Source: Acidobacteria bacterium UBA7540
GTDB lineage: Bacteria; Acidobacteriota; Terriglobia; UBA7540
Assembly: GCA_002478145.1 (NCBI GenBank)
Contig: DLMI01000131.1
Location: 1 to 28,742, forward strand
DNA: 28,742 nt
Reading direction: 5' to 3'
Shown one piece after another: positions 1 through 16,606 of the stretch; position 1 is the stretch's first letter, and the number at the start of each line of letters is the position of its first letter. The position numbers were made by a program, and so were the translations under genes. The notes below the pieces were generated by a model. It made no database searches. It saw only the letters and a list, made by a program, of their open reading frames with translations, and had not been told where the DNA came from.

Positions 1-47
1 ATCCCGGCGCACGAATTTCCATTGTCCACCTCCGGCCCGACCGATAA

Positions 48-341
48 CATACACCGGACTGCCACTGCGTGCAATTGTCCCTGTCAGGTTTGCAGTGCAA
101 GGTGCTTCCGCAGGCCGGACGGGCGGCGATTCGCGATGCGGTTGGGAATTGGAGCACGGTTTCGTACTGGCTCGATCTGGGCAACAATGCAGATAGCGGG
201 CAGTTCATCCTGGGTGAATCTCTCAATGTGCGGAATCGCAAGGCAAAACTCCGCCTGAGGTCTGCGGCGGAGCTCTTTCCTGAGATCGTGGATCCGAATC
301 TCGACAACGACGAAGAATCGAGCTGTAGCTCCGCTGAGGCA
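48..341 (+). pseudogene. 5' part of an interrupted ThiF-like gene (PRTRC-type)
   Basis: In the frame containing position 69 the translation contains YWLDLGNNADSGQFILGE, then ELFPEIVDPN and a SSCSSAEA stretch. From memory this order matches the C-terminal half of the ThiF-family protein of PRTRC plasmid-type systems (WLDLGN, GQ-hydrophobic-LG, acidic linker, SCSxAEA). Homology stops at the AEA codons ending near 341, and the rest of the frame to 428 looks unrelated. The missing continuation (ERQEPF...HALALLARLF) reappears at 3740-3990. The frame is closed upstream by a stop at 45-47, and the residues before about position 110 do not read like ThiF, so the N-terminal part is frameshifted, or lost, or lies outside the window. 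Adenylating activity is not expected. Family recognition is by memory of motifs, not by search. Confidence 0.62.
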
Positions 342-423
342 GGACTCCTCTGGCTGGCCATCGGTTTTTTGCTGCTAGCGTTCTTCCGCAGCCTGGTACA
401 GCCGGCCACTACGCTTGTTGGAC

Positions 424-429
424 TATAAT
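424..429 (+). promoter_or_regulatory. candidate -10 box for the S53 peptidase gene
   Basis: A perfect TATAAT lies 48 bp upstream of the chosen ATG at 478, inside the foreign-looking segment that follows the ThiF break. No good TTGACA-like -35 is visible at 16-18 bp, so this is a weak call. The ribosome binding site AAGGGAAGG at 465-473 is more convincing. Confidence 0.3.
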
Positions 430-477
430 AGCGTCGCAGGTTTGTGGAGCACAGACTCTCGCTTAAGGGAAGGTTCT

Positions 478-3400
478 ATGCGACGCAAAGCAATCCTATT
501 GGTGAAGTGGCTCGCAGTCTTGGGGCTGGTTTTCTCTCTAACCCCGTTTTCGTTCGCCCAATCGGCGGGGAAGGATCGCATCGTGCGGGCGATTGGCGAC
601 TCGTCGCGGGTCACGCTCCAGGGCAATGTCCGCCCCATGTTCCGGCCTGAAAACGACATGGGACCGGTCGAGGGCTCCCTCAAGCTCGAAAACATCTCCC
701 TCATGTTCAAGCTCACGGAGAGCCAGCAGGCCGGCTTGACGGCGCTCCTGGACGAACTACAGAATCCCTCTTCGCCGAACTTTCACAAGTGGCTGACCCC
801 AGAGCAGTTCGCCGACCGTTTCGGATTGAGCCCAAGCGATGAGGAAAAGGTCGTCACTTGGTTGCAGGCGCAGGGTTTCACCGTGACCCAGACGGCTCAC
901 AGCCGCAATTGGGTCTCTTTCTCGGGTACCGCAGCGCAGTTGCAAGCAGCTTTTCAAACGCAGATTCACCACTTCTCGCTCAACGGCGAGACGTACTATG
1001 CTAATGCGACGGAGCCTTCCGTGCCCAGCGCCCTCGCGGACGTGGTCTTGGGCATTCAGGCGCTGGACAATTACCCTCTCAAACCGGGCAGCGTCGTCCG
1101 CAGGGTGAAGTCGAGTCTCAAACCGGACTTCACCTCCTCCATCAGTGGGAATACCTACGTCGCCCCGGGCGACTTTGCCACCATCTACGACGTCAATGCT
1201 CTTTACAGCAGCGGAATCGATGGCACGGGGCAGTCGATCGCGGTGATGGGGCAGACGGACCTCTATAACAACGGGAGCGATATCACCGCTTTCCGCAGTG
1301 CCTCGGGGCTGCCGGCGAACCCCCCAACGGTTTTCCTGGTCCCTGGTTCGTCCGACCCGGGCGTCGTCTCAGCGGATATCGTCGAAGCCAGCCTGGACGT
1401 CGAATGGTCAGGCGCGGTGGCCAAGAACGCCACAATCATCTATGTCAACGGGGGAGGCAACGGAGTCCTTAAAGCGGTCCAGTACGCCATTGCCAATAAC
1501 ACTGCACCGGTCATCAGCATCAGCTATGGCCTCTGCGAAGCGAAGTGGGGTTCCACGGCACTAAATACCTTTGCGAGTCTTGCCCAGGAGGCGAATACAC
1601 AAGGACAGACCATTGTGGCTGACGCCGGCGACTCTGGCGCAGCCGATTGCGATGCCCCTTCGTCCACCGTGACGGTTGCCACGCAGGGCCTGGCTGTAAA
1701 TGCGCCCGCCAGTTTTCCCAACGTTACAGCAATGGGCGGGACGGAATTCAATGAGGGCTCGGGGACGTACTGGGCAGCGGCTACCAACGGGGTGGATGTT
1801 TCCCCTTCGGCCCTTTCCTATATCCCGGAGGTGGTATGGAACGATACGTCGTCACCGTTAAACACCCAACACGATCTGTGGGCAGGGGGGGGCGGAGCTA
1901 GCGGGTACTTCTCCAAGCCGAGTTGGCAGACAGGAACCGGCGTGCCGAACGACAATGCCCGAGACGTTCCAGACCTTTCCCTTAATTCCTCCTTCTTTCA
2001 CGACGGAAGCTTGATGTGTGTCCAGGGGAGCTGCGTCAGCGGATTCCGCGATAGTAATCAGGACCTGATTGCGGCAGGTGGAACCTCTGTGGCGACGCCC
2101 ACTTTTGCGGGGATCGTTGCCCTCATAAACCAGTACATGAACACTCCAAATGGCCAGGGCAACATTAACCACATGCTCTATTCCATGGCGGCGACTACGC
2201 CCGCGGCGTTCCACGACATCACGACCGGCAATAATATGGTGCCCTGTCAGGCCGGAACCACGGATTGTCCCAACGGCGGCGCGATTGGCTATAGCGCCGA
2301 CATCGGCTACGATCAGGCGAGCGGCATCGGCTCCATTGATGCTTTCAACTTGGTCACCGCGTGGGGTTCGTCGGGTGCAGGAAACTTGCCGGCTCCTACC
2401 TTGACCGCACCTGCCAACGGGGCGACGGGGGTCGCTCTCTCGCCTGCCTTCAGTTGGACGGCGGTGACCGGTAACGCCGGTTACCGAATCATGATCGCAG
2501 CCAGTCCGGCCGATCTGCCGACCAACCCCGCAACAAGCACTTGCAGCGCGTGCACGATTGTTGACACGACCAGCACGAATTCGAATTCCTACACTCCGCC
2601 GAGCGCTCTGGCTGTGGGCACCTACTTTTGGCAGGTGCAAGCCCTTGAGCCCTCTTCCAGCAGCGGGACCGCTGCTTGGTCAAACGCTTTTAGCTTCACT
2701 ACGAACGGCCCGACGCTGGCGGCGCCGACGCTGACCGCGCCCGCCAATGGAGCGACGGGGGTCTCGCTCACGCCCACCTTCAGTTGGACACCGGTCACAG
2801 GGAATGCGGGCTATTTAATATTAATTGCTACTACGCAATCCGTGCTGCCCACAAATCCTGCGGTACAGACCTGCTCAGGCTGCGCAACCGGCACGACAAC
2901 CACGGCGACCTCTTACACTCCGCCGAGCGCACCGGCTGCGGGCAATCTGGCCGCGGGCACCTACTATTGGCAGGTGCAAGCCTTGTCTTCTTCCAGCGGG
3001 GTGTACGGGACTTGGTCAAGTGTCTCCAGCTTCACTACCGTCGTTCCGGATTTTTCGCTCAGTGCTTCCCCCAGCACTTTGACGATGAATCCTGGGAGCA
3101 GCGGCACATCCACGCTCACCTTGACACCGGTCAACAACTTTTCCGGCAGCGTGACCTTATCCTGTAGCGTGGGCAGTACGCTGGCGGGAGTCACCTGCTC
3201 GGTCGGGGCCCTCAACAGCAACAACACGGCCACCGTCACGATTACTGCTTCGTCCTCGGCATCGAACTTTCCTGCGCCGCAGAAGAACCGCCCGTTCAAG
3301 GGATGGCCGGCGCCAGCCTTGGCGGCGGCTTGCCTGCTGCTGATGCTCCTAATCATACTACGCCGGCGTGATTCACAATCTCTGCTGTGGAGACCGTGCG

Positions 3401-3582
3401 TGCGGCAGGTCGCGTTCGTTGCCATGCTCGCGTGCTTGCTGGCGATGATGCTAAGCTGCGGAGGCTCAAGTGGGGGAGGTAGCGGCGGGGGCACCACAAC
3501 CTCCGAATCCGGCACCGTCACCGTGCAAGGCACGGGCCCAACCACCAGCCATAGCGTGGCGATTTCCGTGACCGTCGATTAA
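478..3582 (+). CDS. secreted S53 (sedolisin/kumamolisin) serine-carboxyl peptidase with FN3-like repeats and C-terminal membrane segments
   Basis: This is a 1034-residue exported endopeptidase. The ATG at 478 is chosen because AAGGGAAGG precedes it by 4 nt and it gives a clean signal peptide (MRRK, hydrophobic core, AQ cleavage). Residues about 55-200 are the pro-kumamolisin activation domain. The catalytic domain follows, with E303 and D307 (EASLDVE), D385 (GDSG) and S537 (GGTSVATP), the full sedolisin set, and the calcium-site-like GYDQASGIGSIDA. Two homologous FN3-like repeats (nt 2389-2703 and 2719-3045) and an Ig-like NFSGSVTLSC domain follow. Next come two hydrophobic segments (about 943-960 and 978-993), and the second ends in MMLSCGG, which resembles a lipobox. 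A Gly/Ser/Thr-rich tail closes the protein. Such tails are common in acidobacterial S53 proteins. Sedolisins usually work at acid pH; extracellular protein degradation is inferred. The gene lies between the two halves of a ThiF-like gene. Confidence 0.9.
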   Translation: MRRKAILLVKWLAVLGLVFSLTPFSFAQSAGKDRIVRAIGDSSRVTLQGNVRPMFRPENDMGPVEGSLKLENISLMFKLTESQQAGLTALLDELQNPSSPNFHKWLTPEQFADRFGLSPSDEEKVVTWLQAQGFTVTQTAHSRNWVSFSGTAAQLQAAFQTQIHHFSLNGETYYANATEPSVPSALADVVLGIQALDNYPLKPGSVVRRVKSSLKPDFTSSISGNTYVAPGDFATIYDVNALYSSGIDGTGQSIAVMGQTDLYNNGSDITAFRSASGLPANPPTVFLVPGSSDPGVVSADIVEASLDVEWSGAVAKNATIIYVNGGGNGVLKAVQYAIANNTAPVISISYGLCEAKWGSTALNTFASLAQEANTQGQTIVADAGDSGAADCDAPSSTVTVATQGLAVNAPASFPNVTAMGGTEFNEGSGTYWAAATNGVDVSPSALSYIPEVVWNDTSSPLNTQHDLWAGGGGASGYFSKPSWQTGTGVPNDNARDVPDLSLNSSFFHDGSLMCVQGSCVSGFRDSNQDLIAAGGTSVATPTFAGIVALINQYMNTPNGQGNINHMLYSMAATTPAAFHDITTGNNMVPCQAGTTDCPNGGAIGYSADIGYDQASGIGSIDAFNLVTAWGSSGAGNLPAPTLTAPANGATGVALSPAFSWTAVTGNAGYRIMIAASPADLPTNPATSTCSACTIVDTTSTNSNSYTPPSALAVGTYFWQVQALEPSSSSGTAAWSNAFSFTTNGPTLAAPTLTAPANGATGVSLTPTFSWTPVTGNAGYLILIATTQSVLPTNPAVQTCSGCATGTTTTATSYTPPSAPAAGNLAAGTYYWQVQALSSSSGVYGTWSSVSSFTTVVPDFSLSASPSTLTMNPGSSGTSTLTLTPVNNFSGSVTLSCSVGSTLAGVTCSVGALNSNNTATVTITASSSASNFPAPQKNRPFKGWPAPALAAACLLLMLLIILRRRDSQSLLWRPCVRQVAFVAMLACLLAMMLSCGGSSGGGSGGGTTTSESGTVTVQGTGPTTSHSVAISVTVD
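2389..3045 (+). repeat. tandem duplicated FN3-like module inside the S53 gene
   Basis: Two in-frame copies, about 315 and 327 bp, share APTLTAPANGATGV, TFSW/AFSW, VTGNAGY, LPTNPA, SYTPPSA, GTYYWQVQAL and SFTT. DNA identity is also high over stretches (for example the cgcctgccttcagttggac / cgcccaccttcagttggac segments). This points to an internal duplication. Each copy has two CxxC-spaced cysteines (CSAC, CSGC). Confidence 0.85.
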
Positions 3583-3602
3583 ACTGAATTTCCCACCGCG
3601 AA

Positions 3603-3776
3603 GGGGAAAGGCGGCTCCGCAGGGCGGGATTGGAAGACGAGAATCGGCGGTTGAAGCAGATCGTGGCGGACCTGCCGCTGGACAACCAAGCCTTGAAGAC
3701 GGTGCTGGCAAAAAAGTTGACGCGCCCACGGACCGGCTCGAGGCGGTGGCAAAGGAGAGACAAGAGCCGTTTGTAA
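3603..3776 (+). pseudogene. IS3-family transposase OrfA remnant (C-terminal helix only)
   Basis: In the frame of 3630 the translation reads LEDENRRLKQIVADL, then LDNQALKTVLAKK, and runs to a stop at 3774-3776. This is the leucine-zipper-like end of IS3-group OrfA proteins. The helix-turn-helix half is missing upstream, where the S53 gene ends at 3582, and no OrfB with DDE motifs follows. From about 3737 another frame carries the ThiF-like continuation, so the IS remnant abuts that break. No terminal inverted repeats were recognised. Confidence 0.7.
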
Positions 3777-3991
3777 AGTCGACCCTCGCCCAGCACGCAC
3801 TGGCCTTGCTGGCCCGGCTGTTTCGCTGCGGCGAAATCAGCTATCATGGCGGTTTAATCAACCTGGCGACGCGTGCGACATCCGAGCTCATGATCGACCC
3901 GCAGTGCTGGAAACGCACCCGGCGAGTGAACAAGCACTCCACGCCGCTACCTCAGCGGCTGGAGGATGGTTCCAATTGCGGAGCCACCTGA
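3740..3991 (+). pseudogene. 3' part of the interrupted ThiF-like gene (PRTRC-type)
   Basis: The frame reads EAVAKERQEPFVKSTLAQ, then HALALLARLFRCGEISYHGG and LINLATRATSELMIDP, before a stop at 3989-3991. From memory this is the C-terminal end of PRTRC ThiF proteins (RQEPFxNQTLA, HALALLxRLFRxGE, YHGGFxNL). It continues exactly where the fragment ending at 341 stops. Joining them at the shared GAGGC (336-340 and 3740-3744) restores one reading frame. A GTG at 3746 could start a short orphan peptide, but no ribosome binding site is evident. A non-functional remnant is the best reading. Confidence 0.65.
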
Positions 3992-4210
3992 GGACGAGTT
4001 GATGGCCTGGATCCCCGAGTTTGAAAAGAAGCTCGTGGGAAAGAAAAGCGGGAATCTGGAGTTCAAGGTCAAGGCATTACGCGACCGAGAACTACTGCTT
4101 GCTTCGCCGTGCTCCCTTGACTATCATTGCGGGCAATGGAGGGACGGAAAGTGGTCAATTTCAGAGTCTTGCCACACCTAGGTACTTATCGATCGATTGG
4201 GGAACATAGA
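3992..4210. other. gap between the ThiF remnant and the histidine kinase
   Basis: A 71-codon frame starting with ATG at 3966 (EDELMAWIPEFEKKLVGKKSG...) overlaps the end of the ThiF remnant and runs to 4181. I recognise no family, see no ribosome binding site, and regard it as unlikely to be a real gene. Just before the kinase start, GGGGA at 4199-4203 is a plausible ribosome binding site. Confidence 0.35.
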
Positions 4211-7200
4211 GTGGTCGGCAACTCGCAACCCGTGGGGCATCACTCGTCTGTACATGTAATTCTACTCGTTTTCGTTTTTCTTGTCCTACCTGGGGTTGCA
4301 TTGGCCCAGCAGGAGGGGCGCGGCGCATCGGAGACCCTGCCCGTACTCAAAGAAGCTCGCCAGGTCAGAGAACTCTCTTCAGAAAAGGCCACTCTTGGCT
4401 ACCCCATTCAACTGCACGCGGTGGTCACGTACGCCGAGTTCAGCCACGGACACTTGTTCGTCCAGGATGCAACCGCCGGAATCTACGTTGACCCTACCAA
4501 ACTGGCGGTCCAGTTGCGCGCTGGCCAGTACGTGGAGGTTGAGGGCAGAACGGGGCCAGGGTTTTTCGCCTCTGAAATCGTGAATCCTCGCGTGCGCATC
4601 TTGGGCGAAGCTCCGTTGCCAGTGCCACGAAGGGTCTCTGGAGAGGAGTTGGCGTCGGGAGTACAGGATAGCCAGTTTGTTGAAGTGGAAGGCATCGTCA
4701 TGTCTACCGGCGAGAATGATGGACGCTTACTCCTGCACATTGCCTCCAGAGCGGTTGAATTCCCGGTCTACGTCTTGGTCCAAAAGGCTGCCCCGGAAAA
4801 CTTGGTAGGAGCAGCAGTGCGACTGAGGGGAGTGTCCAGCGGCATCTACAATGCTAAGACCCAGTTCATCGGCGCCGCGCTGATGGTCCCTGGCTTCGAC
4901 AATCTCCTCGTGGAGCGCCCCGCACCGACCGACCTTTTCTCGGTTCCTTTGCGTCCCATTCACATCGTTCTGCGACTCACTTCACAGGGAGCATTCAGCC
5001 AGCGCGTGAGGGTTCAGGGAGTAGTCACTCTTCAGCGCCTGCGGAGATCGATTTTCATCAGTGATGGACAGCAGGGCGTGGAAGTCCAAACGGGCCAGAC
5101 AACGGTGCTCAAGCCCGGGGATCGGGTCGAGGTGGTTGGATTTCCTGCGGTGGGCAACTATAGCCCCGTCTTGAAAGATGCGATCTTCAGAAGAATCGGA
5201 ACAGGCCCGCCACCCCAACCTGTGACCGTGACGGCACAACAGGCGCTCGCAGGCAGCTTTGACTCCGAGCTGATTCGAATCCAAGGACGATTGTTGGACT
5301 TCGGTAGGCAAGCGGGCCTACGAACACTTTCTATCAGCACGGACAACCTGAATTTTAGGGCTGAGCTTGAGGAGGCGATAGCAGGGCAAGCTCTGGCCCA
5401 CCTCCGTGTGGGCAGCCTGGTGCAACTGACCGGGATATGCAACATTGGTGTCGATGAGAACAGGGCCCCCGTAGGCTTCGGACTTCTGCTTCGGGCGCCG
5501 GAAGATGTGGCGGTTGTTCAACAGCCTCCGTGGTGGACCCTTGAGCGCGCGCTCTCCCTGCTGGGTTTCACGGGATTGGTCGTCCTCTCGGCGCTAGTCT
5601 GGGTAGTCATGCTTAGACGGCGCGTGCAGAATCAAACCGAGACGATTCGGGCGACATTGGAGTCCACCGCGGAGGGAATCCTGGTTGTTGATGGACGAGG
5701 GAAAATCACCGCTTTCAATGAGAAATTCGGGGAGCTTTGGCGGATTCCGAAGTCCATTCTCGCGTCGAGGGACGAGGACAAAGTGGTCTCCTACGTGTCC
5801 TCCCAATTGAAGGACCCAGAAAGTTTCCATCTGAGAGTGGCCGAGCTTTACGCCCATCCGAACGGGCAAAGTGATGACGTCATTGAACTCAAGGATGGAA
5901 GAATCCTCGAGGGGCAGTCCCATCCCCAGAGAGTTGGAGGGAAGAACGTTGGGAGGGTCTGGGGATTTCGGGACGTTACCGAGCGCACGCGGGCCGAGGA
6001 AGTGCGCTCGAAGCTGGCTGCCATCGTTGAGTCGTCCGACGATGCCATTATCAGCAGGACGTTGGGAGGGACGATTACCAGTTGGAACAAAGGCGCTGAA
6101 GTGATCTTCGGCTATCGGGCCGACGAGGTCATGGGAAAGCCCGTTTCAATGCTTGCGGCCTCCGACTATGTTGACGAATTGGCGGTGATTCTGCACAGGG
6201 TCAGGCAGGGTGAGAAAATCACCCATTTTGAGACCGTACGAGTGCGAAAGGACGGCTGCCGGATTGATGTCTCCCTCACGATCTCTCCGATCCGGAATGC
6301 CGCGGGAGACGTGGTGGGTGCTGCGACTATTGCCCGTGACATCACGGAGCGCAAGCGGGCGGAAGCGGCGCTGATGGAGGAGAGACATTTGCTCCACACC
6401 CTCATGGACAATGTCCCCGACCTGATCTACTTCAAGGATCGCGAGAGCCGCTTTACCCGAATCAATAAGGCGCATGCAAAAGCGTTTGGGCTAAAGGACC
6501 CTACCCAAGCGGTCGGCAAAAACGACTCCGACTTCTTCACTGGTGAACATGCCCAGCAGGCCTATGCCGACGAGCAGGAAATAATCAGGACGGGCCAGCC
6601 GGTGTTGGGCAAGGAGGAGAAAGAAACCTGGCCGAATGGCCATCTGACGTGGGCCTCGACCACGAAGATGCCCCTGCGTGATGCCAACGGGAACATTATC
6701 GGAACCTTCGGCATCTCCCGCGACGTCACCGAGCGCAAGCGGTATGAAGAGTCTCTTCGCGCCAGCGAGCAGCGCTACCGGCTGCTCTTCGAGAGGAACC
6801 TGGCAGGGGTGTATCGCGTCACGGTGGATGGCCATCTTCTGGACTGCAATGACGCTTGCGCACGCATTTTTGGCTACGCGTCAACGTCCGAGATGTTGGA
6901 GCGCAGGGCTGGAGATTTGTATTTTGACGCCACGGCCCGCAACGAGTTTCTCGGTAGATTGAAGGAGCATGGGACTCTAACCAATTTCGAACAGTGTTTG
7001 CAGAGGAAGGACGGGAGCCCTTTGTGGGTCTTGGAGAATGCTACCCTGGTCATGAATGTGGAGGGGGAGATCGCCCACATCGAAGGGAGCCTGATTGATA
7101 TATCCGATCGCCGGCAGGCGGAAGAAGAATTGCGCCGCGCCAAAGAGACTGCGGAAGCTGCCAGCCGGGCGAAGAGTGATTTCCTGGCAGTGATGAGCCA

Positions 7201-9121
7201 TGAGATCCGGACCCCCATGAATGGGATCATTGGCATGACGGAATTGGCCCTCGACACCCCCCTTTCGCGTGAGCAGCGAGAGTACCTGAGCAGCGTAAAA
7301 GAGTCCGCTGACACCCTCCTGACCTTGATCAATGACATCCTGGATTTCTCCAAGATTGAGGCCGGGAGACTTTCGCTCGACATTTGCGAATTCGACCTGC
7401 AAGATGCGCTGAGCAACACCATGCGGGCACTCGCCGCTCGGGCTGATGAGAAGGGACTTGAGTTGACATGGGAGACCCTGCCCGACCTTCCGGCCCGCCT
7501 AGTCGGAGATCCTGGACGGCTGCGACAAGTCCTTCTGAATTTGGTGGGGAATGGCATCAAGTTCACCGAACGCGGGGAAGTGGACTTGCAGGTCGAGATC
7601 GAGTCGCAAGGGGAAGATTGGACCACCCTGCATTTCTGCGTCACCGACACTGGCATCGGCATCCCGTGGGAAAAGCAACAGCGGATTTTTGGGGCCTTCA
7701 TGCAGGCTGATAGCTCCACCACACGTAAATATGGTGGGACCGGCCTGGGCTTGGCTATCTCGTCCCGACTGATAAAGCTGATGGAAGGGCGAATTTGGCT
7801 GGAGAGCGAATCGAACAAAGGAAGCAGGTTCCATTTCACGGCGAAGTTTGGGCTTGTGAAAGGGCCGCAGCCACAGCCCGCTCCCCTGGTAGAGGTCAGC
7901 CTGCAAGGTACGCCTGTGCTAGTCATTGACGATAATGCTACCAACCGGCGTATTTTGGAGGCCATGCTCGAGTCCTGGTTCATGCAGCCCGCGTTGGTGG
8001 CGAGCGGGCAGGAGGGTCTGGTCGAGATGCGGCGCGCAAAGGACATGGGCAAAACTTTTCCTTTGATTCTGCTTGATGCCCAAATGCCGGATATGGACGG
8101 CTTCATGGTCGTTGAGAAGCTCAAGGAAGATCCCACCCTCGCCGGAAGCGCGATCATGATGTTGACCTCTGCTGGACAGCGCGGTGACGCCGCCCGCTGC
8201 CGTGCGCTTGGCATCTCGGCGTATCTCGTCAAACCGATCCGGCAGTCCGAGCTCTTGGAGGCAATTCTGCTCGTTCTTGGCCCGCGCTCCCAGAGAAAGG
8301 ACCACCCTGACCTTGTCACCCGTCACACGATTCGAGAAGAGCGTCGCAAGCTCCGCATCATTGTGGCGGAGGACAACGCGATCAACCGAGAGCTCGTGAC
8401 GCGCCTGCTCCAGAAACGTGGACACACCGTTATGGCAGTCACGACCGGTCGAGAAGCTGTCGACCTATTGGATAAGGACGCGGCGAATTGTGACATCGTA
8501 CTGATGGATGTGGAAATGCCGGACATGGATGGCTTTCAAGCCACAGCTATCATCCGTGAGAAGGAAAAGATCAGCGGTAAGCACATCCCGATCGTTGCCC
8601 TGACAGCATACGCCATGAAAGGTGATCGTGAACGTTGCTTGGCGGCAGGCATGGACGGCTATGTGCCCAAGCCCATCCGACACCAAAACCTGTTTGAAAC
8701 TATCCAAACACTCGTCATGGACGTGCCCAACATTCCCACCCATGCGCCTCCTGAAAAACCTCCGGTGGAGGTTCTGGATGAAGCGCTGCTTATGTCTCGG
8801 GTGGACAACGACCCTCAATTGCTAAGGGACCTCGTGGACCTGTTTCTGGAGGAGTGTCCGCGTCTTGTGGATGAAATCAGGGTCGCGCTGGACAGGAAGG
8901 ATGCAAAGGTCCTGCAAAGAAGCGCGCATAGTCTGAAAGGCTCCACAGGTAACCTTGCTGCGAAGATGGCCTCGGAAGCAGCGCTCAAGCTCGAAAGGCT
9001 CGCTCAGGCTGGGAACTTGGTGGACGCCGAAAATGTGCTGCGGGAGTTGGAGTGTCAACTGGAACGCTTGAAGCCGGCTTTACTCGCCGTTCGGACGGAG
9101 ACAGAGAAAAGAGCGCTCTGA
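4211..9121 (+). CDS. hybrid sensor histidine kinase: periplasmic OB-like repeats, 4 PAS, HisKA-HATPase, 2 REC, HPt
   Basis: This is a membrane phosphorelay kinase of 1636 residues from the GTG at 4211, chosen because GGGGA lies 7 nt upstream and a signal-like segment (VILLVFVFLVLPGVALAQ) follows. The frame stays open upstream to 4127, with an ATG at 4136 as an alternative. The periplasmic part (about residues 60-440) has four OB-like repeats with V-x-V-x-G starts. One membrane segment follows (about 450-470, ending WVVMLRRRV). PAS domains lie at about 475-595, 598-716, 724-846 and 850-968, most ending in DVTER/DITER-type motifs. HisKA has the phospho-acceptor H997 (SHEIRTPMNG). HATPase shows GNGIKF, DTGIGIP and GGTGLGLA. 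The receivers have D1289 (LLDAQMPDMDG) and D1433 (LMDVEMPDMDG), and the HPt has H1573 (SAHSLKG). All phosphotransfer residues are present. The likely partner is the diguanylate cyclase 129 bp downstream. The signal sensed is unknown. Confidence 0.95.
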   Translation: MVGNSQPVGHHSSVHVILLVFVFLVLPGVALAQQEGRGASETLPVLKEARQVRELSSEKATLGYPIQLHAVVTYAEFSHGHLFVQDATAGIYVDPTKLAVQLRAGQYVEVEGRTGPGFFASEIVNPRVRILGEAPLPVPRRVSGEELASGVQDSQFVEVEGIVMSTGENDGRLLLHIASRAVEFPVYVLVQKAAPENLVGAAVRLRGVSSGIYNAKTQFIGAALMVPGFDNLLVERPAPTDLFSVPLRPIHIVLRLTSQGAFSQRVRVQGVVTLQRLRRSIFISDGQQGVEVQTGQTTVLKPGDRVEVVGFPAVGNYSPVLKDAIFRRIGTGPPPQPVTVTAQQALAGSFDSELIRIQGRLLDFGRQAGLRTLSISTDNLNFRAELEEAIAGQALAHLRVGSLVQLTGICNIGVDENRAPVGFGLLLRAPEDVAVVQQPPWWTLERALSLLGFTGLVVLSALVWVVMLRRRVQNQTETIRATLESTAEGILVVDGRGKITAFNEKFGELWRIPKSILASRDEDKVVSYVSSQLKDPESFHLRVAELYAHPNGQSDDVIELKDGRILEGQSHPQRVGGKNVGRVWGFRDVTERTRAEEVRSKLAAIVESSDDAIISRTLGGTITSWNKGAEVIFGYRADEVMGKPVSMLAASDYVDELAVILHRVRQGEKITHFETVRVRKDGCRIDVSLTISPIRNAAGDVVGAATIARDITERKRAEAALMEERHLLHTLMDNVPDLIYFKDRESRFTRINKAHAKAFGLKDPTQAVGKNDSDFFTGEHAQQAYADEQEIIRTGQPVLGKEEKETWPNGHLTWASTTKMPLRDANGNIIGTFGISRDVTERKRYEESLRASEQRYRLLFERNLAGVYRVTVDGHLLDCNDACARIFGYASTSEMLERRAGDLYFDATARNEFLGRLKEHGTLTNFEQCLQRKDGSPLWVLENATLVMNVEGEIAHIEGSLIDISDRRQAEEELRRAKETAEAASRAKSDFLAVMSHEIRTPMNGIIGMTELALDTPLSREQREYLSSVKESADTLLTLINDILDFSKIEAGRLSLDICEFDLQDALSNTMRALAARADEKGLELTWETLPDLPARLVGDPGRLRQVLLNLVGNGIKFTERGEVDLQVEIESQGEDWTTLHFCVTDTGIGIPWEKQQRIFGAFMQADSSTTRKYGGTGLGLAISSRLIKLMEGRIWLESESNKGSRFHFTAKFGLVKGPQPQPAPLVEVSLQGTPVLVIDDNATNRRILEAMLESWFMQPALVASGQEGLVEMRRAKDMGKTFPLILLDAQMPDMDGFMVVEKLKEDPTLAGSAIMMLTSAGQRGDAARCRALGISAYLVKPIRQSELLEAILLVLGPRSQRKDHPDLVTRHTIREERRKLRIIVAEDNAINRELVTRLLQKRGHTVMAVTTGREAVDLLDKDAANCDIVLMDVEMPDMDGFQATAIIREKEKISGKHIPIVALTAYAMKGDRERCLAAGMDGYVPKPIRHQNLFETIQTLVMDVPNIPTHAPPEKPPVEVLDEALLMSRVDNDPQLLRDLVDLFLEECPRLVDEIRVALDRKDAKVLQRSAHSLKGSTGNLAAKMASEAALKLERLAQAGNLVDAENVLRELECQLERLKPALLAVRTETEKRAL

Positions 9122-14122: not shown

Positions 14123-14207
14123 CAACGGCGGGAGGACTTCCGTTTTGTGCCTTTCTCGCCGATAATAGATCTTGGAAGCTGGAAGACTCACCGCCCTTAT
14201 AAGGAAC

Positions 14208-15311
14208 ATGTCTACTAACCGCCGTCCAGATCCTGAGCAACTGTTGCGCCAACTTCAGGCCGAGGAGCAATACTACAAGCGCGGACGACTCAAGATTTTT
14301 CTCGGATACGCGGGAGGCGTGGGAAAATCATTCCGCATGCTTGACGAGGCGCGGCGCCGGCGGACACGAGCAGAGGATGTGGTAGTGGGTGCGATCCAAC
14401 CCAAGGTCTCAGCCGAAGTCGAAGCCCTGCTGCAAAAAATGCCAATTATCCCCCTCCGTACCATCGGTGGCGTGCCCACGATGGACGTGGAGGCCATCCT
14501 GCGTCGCCACCCCCAAGTCTGCGTGGTTGATGGTCTGGCTTATGACAACCCCCCTGGCAGCCCGCACTCCAAGCGCTGGCAGGATGTAGAGCACCTGCTT
14601 TCGGCGGGCATCTCGGTGATTGCCACGGTCAACCTCCAACATATCGAGGAACGGCGGGAGGAGGTGGAGAGGATCACGGGCAAGCACGTGACGGAGACCG
14701 TTCCGGAAAGCTTCTTGCGCAATGCGGACGAAATCGAAATTGTGGACGCACCGCCCGATTTTGCTCTACAGCGCGACCCCAGCCCTCTGGTTACGGATCA
14801 GGCGCGCGCTACGACCATCCTGCCGCAACAGCTTTCTGGACTGCGGGAGATTGCGCTCCTGCTGGCTGCGGATGTGGTCGACTATCAGCTTGAGGCTTAC
14901 CTGGCGCGTCATGGCATCGAGCAGGTTTGGGGCGCCCATGAGCGCATTCTCGTTTGTGTTTCCCCTTACGCCGACGCTGCCGAGATCATCGCCAGCGGAA
15001 GGCGCAACGCCGAGCGATTCCATGGGGAATTGTTTGTGGCGTACGTTAATCGGCCAGACGTCACATTGGAAGAAAAGACTCTCCTGGAGAGAAACTTATC
15101 GCAGGCGCGGGCTGCCGGCGCGCGCATCGAAGCACTGGATGGCGAGGATCCAACCTACATCATCATGCAGTTTGCGCGGGCCCACGGCATTACTCAGATC
15201 TTTTTGGCGAACCGAATGAGCAACAACTGGTGGGATCGCGTCTTTGGCAGGCCTGTGGAACACCTCATCCGGGCAGCGGAGAATATCGACGTCAGAGTTT
15301 TCCCAGTATAG
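14208..15311 (+). CDS. KdpD N-terminal domain / universal stress protein, degenerate Walker B (paralog 1)
   Basis: This 367-residue soluble protein contains only the N-terminal sensor part of KdpD and a Usp-like domain; membrane helices and kinase are absent. Residues 26-240 match KdpD: Walker A-like GYAGGVGKS (33-41), PQVCVVD, RWQDVEHLL, TVNLQHIE, ETVPE. The usual DELAHTN motif is replaced by DGLAYDN (D108, G109), so the acidic residue after the Walker B aspartate is lost. The segment linking to the Usp domain is also reshaped compared with paralog 2. The Usp-like domain is about 245-367 (ERILVCVSP..., FGRPVEHLIRAAENIDVRVFPV). The ATG at 14208 has AAGGA only 2 nt away, so a TTG at 14172 is a possible alternative. 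A regulatory or ligand-binding role is likely; no kdpFABC genes are present. Confidence 0.85.
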   Translation: MSTNRRPDPEQLLRQLQAEEQYYKRGRLKIFLGYAGGVGKSFRMLDEARRRRTRAEDVVVGAIQPKVSAEVEALLQKMPIIPLRTIGGVPTMDVEAILRRHPQVCVVDGLAYDNPPGSPHSKRWQDVEHLLSAGISVIATVNLQHIEERREEVERITGKHVTETVPESFLRNADEIEIVDAPPDFALQRDPSPLVTDQARATTILPQQLSGLREIALLLAADVVDYQLEAYLARHGIEQVWGAHERILVCVSPYADAAEIIASGRRNAERFHGELFVAYVNRPDVTLEEKTLLERNLSQARAAGARIEALDGEDPTYIIMQFARAHGITQIFLANRMSNNWWDRVFGRPVEHLIRAAENIDVRVFPV

Positions 15312-15449
15312 CAGGCTGATGAAAAAGTGCCCATCATGTCATGCTGAGCGAAGCGAAGCATCTCGCTCTGTTTTGAAGTCAAGAACTTAGATTCTTCTCC
15401 CGCGACTGCGGGATCAGAATGACAGCTTCTGAGTTTTTTCATCAGCCTG
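15312..15449. mobile_element. 138-bp MITE-like element with terminal inverted repeats and 4-bp target duplication
   Basis: The ends CAGGCTGATGAAAAA (15312-15326) and TTTTTCATCAGCCTG (15435-15449) are perfect 15-bp inverted repeats. Both sides are flanked by ATAG (15308-15311 and 15450-15453), a probable target duplication. The interior carries two REP-type units in opposite orientation: TGTCATGCTGAGCGAAG...ATCT (15337-15363) and AGATTCTTC...AGAATGACA (15389-15424). The element has no coding capacity and would need a transposase in trans. Confidence 0.8.
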
Positions 15450-15463
15450 ATAGGATGCCGTAC

Positions 15464-16606
15464 ATGTCCGAGTCCGTCCGTCGAGGCACGCTTAAGATCT
15501 TCCTGGGTTACGCCGCGGGCGTCGGCAAGACTTATCAGATGCTGGACGAAGCCCACAAGTTGAAGAATGAGGGTATTGACGTCGTGCTGGGCTATTTCGA
15601 GCCCCACGGGCGCATGGACACCATTACTAAAGCCGAGGGCCTGGAATTCTTACCCCGCCGCAAGATCGCATACCGAGGAGCCGTGTTTGGGGAAACGGAT
15701 GTCGATGCCATACTGCGTCGCCGTCCCCAAGTCTGCGTCATCGACGAGTTTGCACACACGAATATCCCGGGATCGGAGCGAGAAAAGCGCTGGCAAGACG
15801 TTAAACTCCTGCTGGACGCTGGCATCGACGTGTTGACCACGATGAACGTGCAACATCTGGAGAGCCTTAACGACCAGGTCTGGCAGTTCACGGGCATCCG
15901 CGTGCGTGAAACCATCCCGGATTGGGTAGTCAAGCAAGCCGACGAGGTGGTCATGGTCGACTTGCCTCCTCAGGCCCTGCTCAACCGGCTGATGCGCGGC
16001 GTCGTCTATGCACCCGAAAAGGCGCACCAGGCGATGGAGAATTTCTTTAAGGAGTCGACTCTGGTCGCCCTGCGTGAGTTGGCGATACGCCAGACCGCAC
16101 ATGAGGTTGACGTTCGCCAGTCGGTCCAGGACGACACGGAGGCCGTTAGGCTTGGAGGCGAAGACCATGACTCGCTTTCATCTCAGAGGCCGCGGACGTC
16201 CGACCGAATCCTCATTCTCGTCACAGAAGACCCCTCTTCAGCGGCGCTCATCCGACGCGGCAGGCGGGTGGCCGATTACCTGAAGGCGGACTGTTTCGCG
16301 GTGTGTGTCCTCCGCGACGGCAGCTTGCATAATATTCCGGCAGGCCAGCGCGAGGCCGTAGAAAAGCACATGAAATTCGCCCGGAACTTGCATATCGAGC
16401 CCAGCGTGTTACAGGGCGAAGATGTGGCCCAAACTTTGGTCGACTTTGCCCGCCTTCACAGAATTACACAGATCTTCCTTGCCCGGCCCCAGCAGAAGAG
16501 ATGGCCGATGATTTTTGGCCGCGGTTTGGTGGAACGGGTGGTCCGCTTAGCCCACGATATCCAGGTCACTATTGTGGCCGAGCACCGCCGGCAGCAAGAA
16601 GGCTAG
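15464..16606 (+). CDS. KdpD N-terminal domain / universal stress protein (paralog 2, motifs intact)
   Basis: This 380-residue soluble protein corresponds to the cytoplasmic N-terminal half of KdpD. The KdpD domain (8-215) has Walker A-like GYAAGVGKT (15-23) and the intact signature DEFAHTNIPG (D94, E95, H98, N100), then KRWQDVKLLLDAGIDV, NVQHLESLND and RETIPDWV, with VYAPEKAHQAMENFF before a helical LRELAIRQTA segment. A Usp domain follows (about 245-375). The start at ATG 15464 is preceded by AGGA with an 8-nt spacer; upstream in-frame codons lie in the MITE. In full-length KdpD this part senses the intracellular state and binds nucleotides. Without kinase domains and without kdpFABC nearby it probably signals to another partner (inference). 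Similar truncated KdpD proteins are known in other bacteria. Confidence 0.88.
   Translation: MSESVRRGTLKIFLGYAAGVGKTYQMLDEAHKLKNEGIDVVLGYFEPHGRMDTITKAEGLEFLPRRKIAYRGAVFGETDVDAILRRRPQVCVIDEFAHTNIPGSEREKRWQDVKLLLDAGIDVLTTMNVQHLESLNDQVWQFTGIRVRETIPDWVVKQADEVVMVDLPPQALLNRLMRGVVYAPEKAHQAMENFFKESTLVALRELAIRQTAHEVDVRQSVQDDTEAVRLGGEDHDSLSSQRPRTSDRILILVTEDPSSAALIRRGRRVADYLKADCFAVCVLRDGSLHNIPAGQREAVEKHMKFARNLHIEPSVLQGEDVAQTLVDFARLHRITQIFLARPQQKRWPMIFGRGLVERVVRLAHDIQVTIVAEHRRQQEG

Follow-up and report, generated by a model that had tools for sequence, protein, structure and literature searches.

By comparing the left end of a stretch of DNA from Acidobacteria bacterium UBA7540 (contig DLMI01000131.1, 28,742 nucleotides, in the following called the window) with related genomes, we come to the conclusion that this DNA probably carries one thiF gene of the PRTRC type, broken also on its 5′ side, which is split at codon 204 by a patchwork of 3.4 kb. 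The inserted DNA is a mosaic with sharp borders and without element ends. As stated in the initial annotation of this DNA, a gene for an S53 peptidase, which is intact, and debris of an IS3 element lie between the two thiF halves. L, P and G numbers denote related loci, proteins and genomes.

The two thiF pieces and their junction

The thiF pieces and the short sequences shared by their ends are the following:

109–341, plus strand: PRTRC thiF, codons 128–204 in the numbering of P0002 (profile, nucleotide match, tblastn)
336–340, plus strand: GAGGC, left copy, within thiF (sequence)
338–341, plus strand: GGCA, left copy of the overlap consistent with the homologs (alignments, tblastn)
3740–3744, plus strand: GAGGC, right copy, within the start of IS3 orfB, residues EA of EAV (IS3 alignments)
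3748–3751, plus strand: GGCA, right copy of the overlap consistent with the homologs (alignments, tblastn)
3749–3990, plus strand: 3′ part of PRTRC thiF, from codon 204–206 to the stop (profile, tblastn, alignments)

Both flanks of the insert match PRTRC ThiF (TIGR03736) at adjoining profile positions when the left and right pieces are searched by hmmscan, and the assignment of both flanks to this type in the initial annotation was thus right. The left piece, searched as 69–425, covers positions 118–195 (E 1.2e-16, 60.8 bits) and the right piece, searched as 3740–3988, covers positions 193–245 (E 4.9e-9, 35.9 bits). Neither piece reaches the curated cut-off of 144.75 bits, as is usual for fragments; by position they are fragments of the family and do not make up a full member. 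The joined translation of the two halves retrieves 1933 related proteins, many of which are named PRTRC ThiF by their source, and the best 120 of these, called the listed homologs below, show up to 83% identity. Relatives with an uninterrupted gene, which the initial annotation had proposed to look for, do exist: thiF of L001 matches residues 1–283 and thiF of L003 residues 1–273, both without stops.

On the 5′ side the window starts within the gene, and its nucleotide match to thiF of L001, L002 and L005 begins at 109. To the left of about this position there is no clear ThiF match, and reading the window from 1 to 108 as thiF gave no clear frame. In Pfam the peptide of the left end matches only SH3_6 (E 0.16), and the downstream open reading frame matches nothing. 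In L070 (1589–2767) the thiF sequence starts at about codon 127, near the start of the window's match at codon 128, and stands behind an open frame that, as we take it, resembles an outer-membrane receptor.

The two pieces abut at codon 204. A tblastn search with P0002 (283 aa) ends with residue 204 at window 341 and restarts with residue 204 at window 3749, and codon 204 (GCA) is found at 339–341 and again at 3749–3751. In the alignment with L002, window 340 at the left end corresponds to L002 2390 and window 3761 on the right to L002 2401. Together with the tblastn result, this places windows 341 and 3751 at one and the same thiF position, with GGCA as the overlap. Therefore a gap-free join of thiF requires the loss of 3410 bp (342–3751).

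The initial annotation had instead proposed the removal of 3404 bp (341–3744) between two copies of GAGGC, which are indeed present at 336–340 and 3740–3744, and the halves joined in this way do retain one frame. But the spliced translation has two residues too many: the spacing from SC to the ERQ position is six residues in the listed homologs (one pattern covers 106 of them, a second one, which counts the E, another 7, of which six were shown, and 7 were read by eye) and eight in this splice. On the right side the ThiF fragment had been taken to start with EAV. These are IS3 residues, as GAGGCGGTG at 3740–3748 is the start of orfB, and because the IS3 homology covers 3740–3748, the right GAGGC is not part of thiF and does not qualify as one half of a 5-bp target duplication. 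Around two randomly chosen points a common 5-mer turned up in 22% of trials. Four or more matching bases in a row at a fixed register, as given by GGCA, were found in 1.9% of random pairs, and GGCA fits as a 4-bp duplication or as microhomology. In agreement with the initial annotation, terminal or inverted repeats at the insert ends were not above chance for three choices of ends compared with random pairs, where the inverted-repeat score was equalled by 177–201 of 1000 pairs at 60 nt and by 642–666 of 1000 pairs at 30 nt.

Composition of the inserted DNA

The insert had been described as a single segment. Instead it consists of pieces with separate relatives, the first of which belongs to a small open reading frame, X, that is found downstream of thiF:

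342–380, plus strand: 39-bp piece of X (87% identity to L070 2901–2939, E 1.5e-6; 85% to L005 998–1036)
381–396 and 3583–3605: short stretches between the assigned insert pieces
397–477, plus strand: upstream DNA belonging to the S53 gene (over 397–619 the identity to the corresponding DNA of the L165 relative is 87.9%; the match starts at 397)
478–3582, plus strand: intact S53 peptidase gene (sedolisin/kumamolisin type) with lipo-invert tail (profile and structure alignment; searched as 481–3579)
3606–3748, plus strand: IS3-family fragment covering the orfA end and the orfB start (3631–3748 by alignment, 3606–3630 by reading)

X encodes a hydrophobic peptide of 42 aa and lies in the same orientation as thiF. 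Three copies were found (L070, L005 and L142), each after a thiF 3′ end; the placement in L142 rests on 91% identity to L070 2675–3003. When eight genomes were searched at E up to 1, two copies of X were present in G001 and one in G003, and G077 gave two weak matches (E 0.3 and 0.44). At E 1e-4 it was found in 2 of 40 genomes of the order. When window 341–480 was searched in the family of G077, five of 200 genomes gave a match at E 0.01 (best 0.005); these matches are short and uninformative.

The S53 protein starts with a sequence that by eye looks like a signal peptide, and it contains a pro-kumamolisin activation domain (PF09286, 125.6 bits with a cut-off of 23.5) and a C-terminal lipo-invert domain above cut-off. 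The nearest solved structures are kumamolisin and tripeptidyl-peptidase 1. The Glu and both Asp residues, which together with a Ser we take to be catalytic, align with kumamolisin 1t1e; the Ser of the GTS motif, where the 1t1e chain has Ala, aligns with tripeptidyl-peptidase 1 (3edy). In the C-terminal part of the gene (window 2387–3038) internal repeats with a spacing of about 330 bp are present. The closest relatives lie in metagenome contigs (P0121 and P0122 at 90%, for P0121 over the full length), and in the order of G001 the protein is up to 71% identical. An ABC gene of the window reaches 72% identity in the same order, where 9 of the 40 genomes have a match at E 1e-100; from such relatives the taxon of the window was deduced.

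The S53 unit is homologous to L165 from 397 to 3580. The window and a shorter S53 relative in G618 (70% over residues 1–632) have DNA in common from 397 on and again at 3505–3580 (76%). Around the S53 relatives in G618, G617 and G642 neither thiF nor X was matched at E 1e-4 (fetched stretches of 15.4, 19.0 and 8.7 kb), and a tblastn search with the S53 protein at E 1e-6 gave no match in 83 PRTRC loci. Among viral contigs seven stretches fit an S53 pattern and none of them is a relative.

The last piece matches IS3-like copies at window 3631–3748 (L109), 3631–3749 (L112) and 3624–3747 (L114), and the family name was taken from the reading frames of these copies; the short peptide of the window itself has no match in Pfam. 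The fragment is internal at both ends; at the junction the homology breaks off within the reading frames of the transposase.

One gene or two copies

In favour of a single thiF gene, the two halves meet within about 9 nt at codon 204, and by a rough estimate independent breaks in a gene of 850 bp would do so in about 1% of cases. In addition, both halves have changed to a similar extent. At columns conserved in at least 97% of sequences the window deviates at 3 of 27 positions on the left and at 4 of 26 on the right. The 120 homologs average 0.53 and 0.38 deviations there; three of them reach three on the left, and no homolog reaches four on the right. This similar excess of change at conserved sites is as expected for one gene that has died once.

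For the order of events, the donor and the route of recombination we suggest the following. The patch, made of the 39-bp remnant of X, the S53 gene together with the upstream DNA belonging to it and the internal IS3 fragment, would most likely have been built elsewhere, perhaps in a sister PRTRC copy, before it entered thiF. Such a donor would explain the X sequence at the left end, and G001 (fen_180) has three thiF matches. The joining to thiF would have taken place by illegitimate recombination via the four shared bases GGCA and not by transposition of an insertion sequence. After entry the S53 gene would have been kept intact and the thiF halves would have decayed. Overall this is ordinary gene decay, at a possibly recurrent insertion site.

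Several observations weigh against a single gene. The X-matching 39 bp directly to the right of the left junction give the region the look of a thiF copy with an internal deletion. One of the four deviations on the right, L205K, sits at the junction itself: codon 205 is Lys in the window and Leu in the homologs shown, and the similarity of the right side to thiF is certain only from codon 206. Furthermore, the nearest nucleotide relative of the left half is L002 (85.8%) and that of the right half L001 (81%, over a stretch including downstream DNA). The best listed protein differs as well, being P0016 on the left (92%) and P0019 on the right (89.5%), with none best on both sides. The two halves may come from different thiF copies.

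A history with two thiF copies is therefore the strongest competitor, although we consider it rather unlikely. The left half would derive from a thiF–X copy with a deletion from codon 205 to the middle of X, the S53 gene and the IS3 debris would have entered behind X, and the right half would be a second, displaced thiF 3′ end. This arrangement has parallels, as X follows thiF in L070, L005 and L142; in L005 the order is thiF, X and, just after X, a second diverged thiF 3′ fragment, and L070 resumes past X as thiF-downstream DNA (score 97 to L001 and 68 to the window, shuffle maximum 34). Displaced thiF 3′ fragments occur in 7 of 83 loci (see below), and the differing nearest relatives of the two halves point in the same direction. 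Against two copies stand the close abutment at codon 204 and the state of the right half: its decay does not clearly exceed that of the left half, while the displaced piece in L005 is down to 43% identity. Two further comparisons leave the balance unchanged. The left and right identities, taken as a test of one gene or two, do not discriminate among the 120 listed proteins (correlation −0.5) because these proteins had been selected by the two identities added together. The SSAEA motif of the window is present in 13 listed proteins, among which P0099 and P0107 are 90% identical on the left and 68% on the right; their C-terminus is of the type of the X loci, which is compatible with one gene and with two copies alike.

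An artefact of the assembly, by which pieces of different molecules were joined, is very improbable. Several junctions do lie within 4 kb, but their overlaps are of 4–5 bases and assemblers normally need longer ones; in addition the frames of 109–341, 3749–3990 and the S53 gene are open. Finally, the transposon-like insertion of one 3404-bp segment with GAGGC as target duplication can practically be dismissed: GAGGC on both sides and the restored frame would suit it, but the right GAGGC is IS3 sequence, the splice is two residues too long compared with the 120 listed homologs, inverted repeats do not exceed chance and the pieces of the insert each have their own relatives.

Displaced thiF fragments and comparison with known systems

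A genome scan with P0005 yielded 80 loci, mostly from Acidobacteriota and some of them partial or broken. In total 83 thiF loci were surveyed (76 with at least 1.5 kb downstream) by comparing the ThiF of each locus with the rest of the locus; as the loci were chosen by likeness to P0005 or P0002, the share of displaced fragments is not a rate for all PRTRC loci. This search revealed an additional thiF 3′ fragment, located downstream of the gene, in L006, L008, L009, L012, L037 and L072. L005, found with P0002, is the seventh case (codons 219–265, 43%, E 5.5e-4), and its stretch 1143–1259 matches window 3808–3924 (score 78, shuffle maximum 36). The fragment of L072 is weak (44%, with a stop), and those of L008, L009 and L012 are short, with about 34–39 codons each.

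In L006, L008, L009, L012 and L037 a homologous nucleotidyltransferase gene lies between thiF and the displaced fragment. The gene exceeds the cut-offs of DUF6036, DUF2204 and an aminoglycoside-adenylyltransferase model, and its match to AbiEii falls short of the cut-off; in L008 it is broken by masked bases. It is preceded by an open reading frame of 77 aa in the four loci where this was seen. L008, L009 and L012 are 97–99% identical across this region, and the five cases probably represent one event.

It is conceivable, and we put it forward only tentatively, that cargo genes have repeatedly landed in the 3′ half of PRTRC thiF in Acidobacteriota. Incoming DNA would bring its own thiF 3′ end and keep the gene whole, the old 3′ end would be left behind in a displaced position, and the window would be a decayed case with a secreted protease as cargo. 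If displaced 3′ fragments with cargo are common, thiF would be a handle for finding the cargo genes of PRTRC plasmids and islands; taken alone, the window represents one decayed gene and says little on function.

Further features were noted around thiF in the relatives and in the remaining window. In L002 thiF (1780–2628) looks mosaic, as codons of about 225–239 resemble the X-type sequence of L070 and L005 and the later codons the X-less type, and it has an internal stop. A DUF6094-type methyltransferase gene lies 1.6–7.7 kb downstream of thiF in ten loci (L002, L005, L070 and seven others) and upstream in seven; it was not found in 66 of the 83 loci within the DNA examined. Between X and this gene, L070 encodes DarT and DarG and L005 Phd/YefM and ParE, the toxin–antitoxin pair DarT/DarG of the PRTRC locus L070 occupying 3297–6519 on the minus strand. 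Relatives of PRTRC ThiF are also present on IMG/VR viral contigs of 64–178 kb (L132, L133 and L134). In the window, two adjacent genes (14172–15311 and 15419–16606) each match the KdpD sensor domain (PF02702), and the surroundings of the thiF remnant are:

13–54, minus strand: 42 bases with 86% identity to L002 6437–6397 (nucleotide match); the counterpart lies on the opposite strand about 3.8 kb past the thiF of L002
3991–4089, plus strand: DNA past thiF that remains colinear with L001 and L002 (nucleotide alignment)
4127–9121, plus strand: hybrid histidine kinase gene, the right border of the thiF remnant (list of open reading frames, profile search)

PRTRC genes have been named on plasmids and on an integrative and conjugative element, and the portions of these reports considered here make no mention of an insertion into thiF (PMC7466150, PMC3826726). 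Within the literature searched, the papers that name PRTRC do not carry the term in their titles or abstracts.

Compared with PRTRC ThiF proteins, both halves of the window match adjoining parts of the profile and have homologs of up to 83% identity; in contrast to these proteins the window's gene is interrupted, has no clear match to the left of codon 128 and is not a working gene. The IS3-like piece resembles the orfA end and orfB start of IS3-family transposases with 78% nucleotide identity to the L109 copy, but it comprises only about 120–145 bp, with no element end and no terminal inverted repeats. With the seven loci that carry displaced fragments the window shares the second thiF 3′ piece downstream; it differs in that the upstream thiF of L006, L008, L009, L012 and L037 matches residues 1 to 261/262, whereas that of the window ends at codon 204. 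Finally, the peptidase gene agrees with the S53/pro-kumamolisin peptidases of Acidobacteriota in its PF09286 domain, in its alignment with kumamolisin and tripeptidyl-peptidase 1 and in having a relative of 90% identity, and it is set apart from them by its position between the pieces of thiF.

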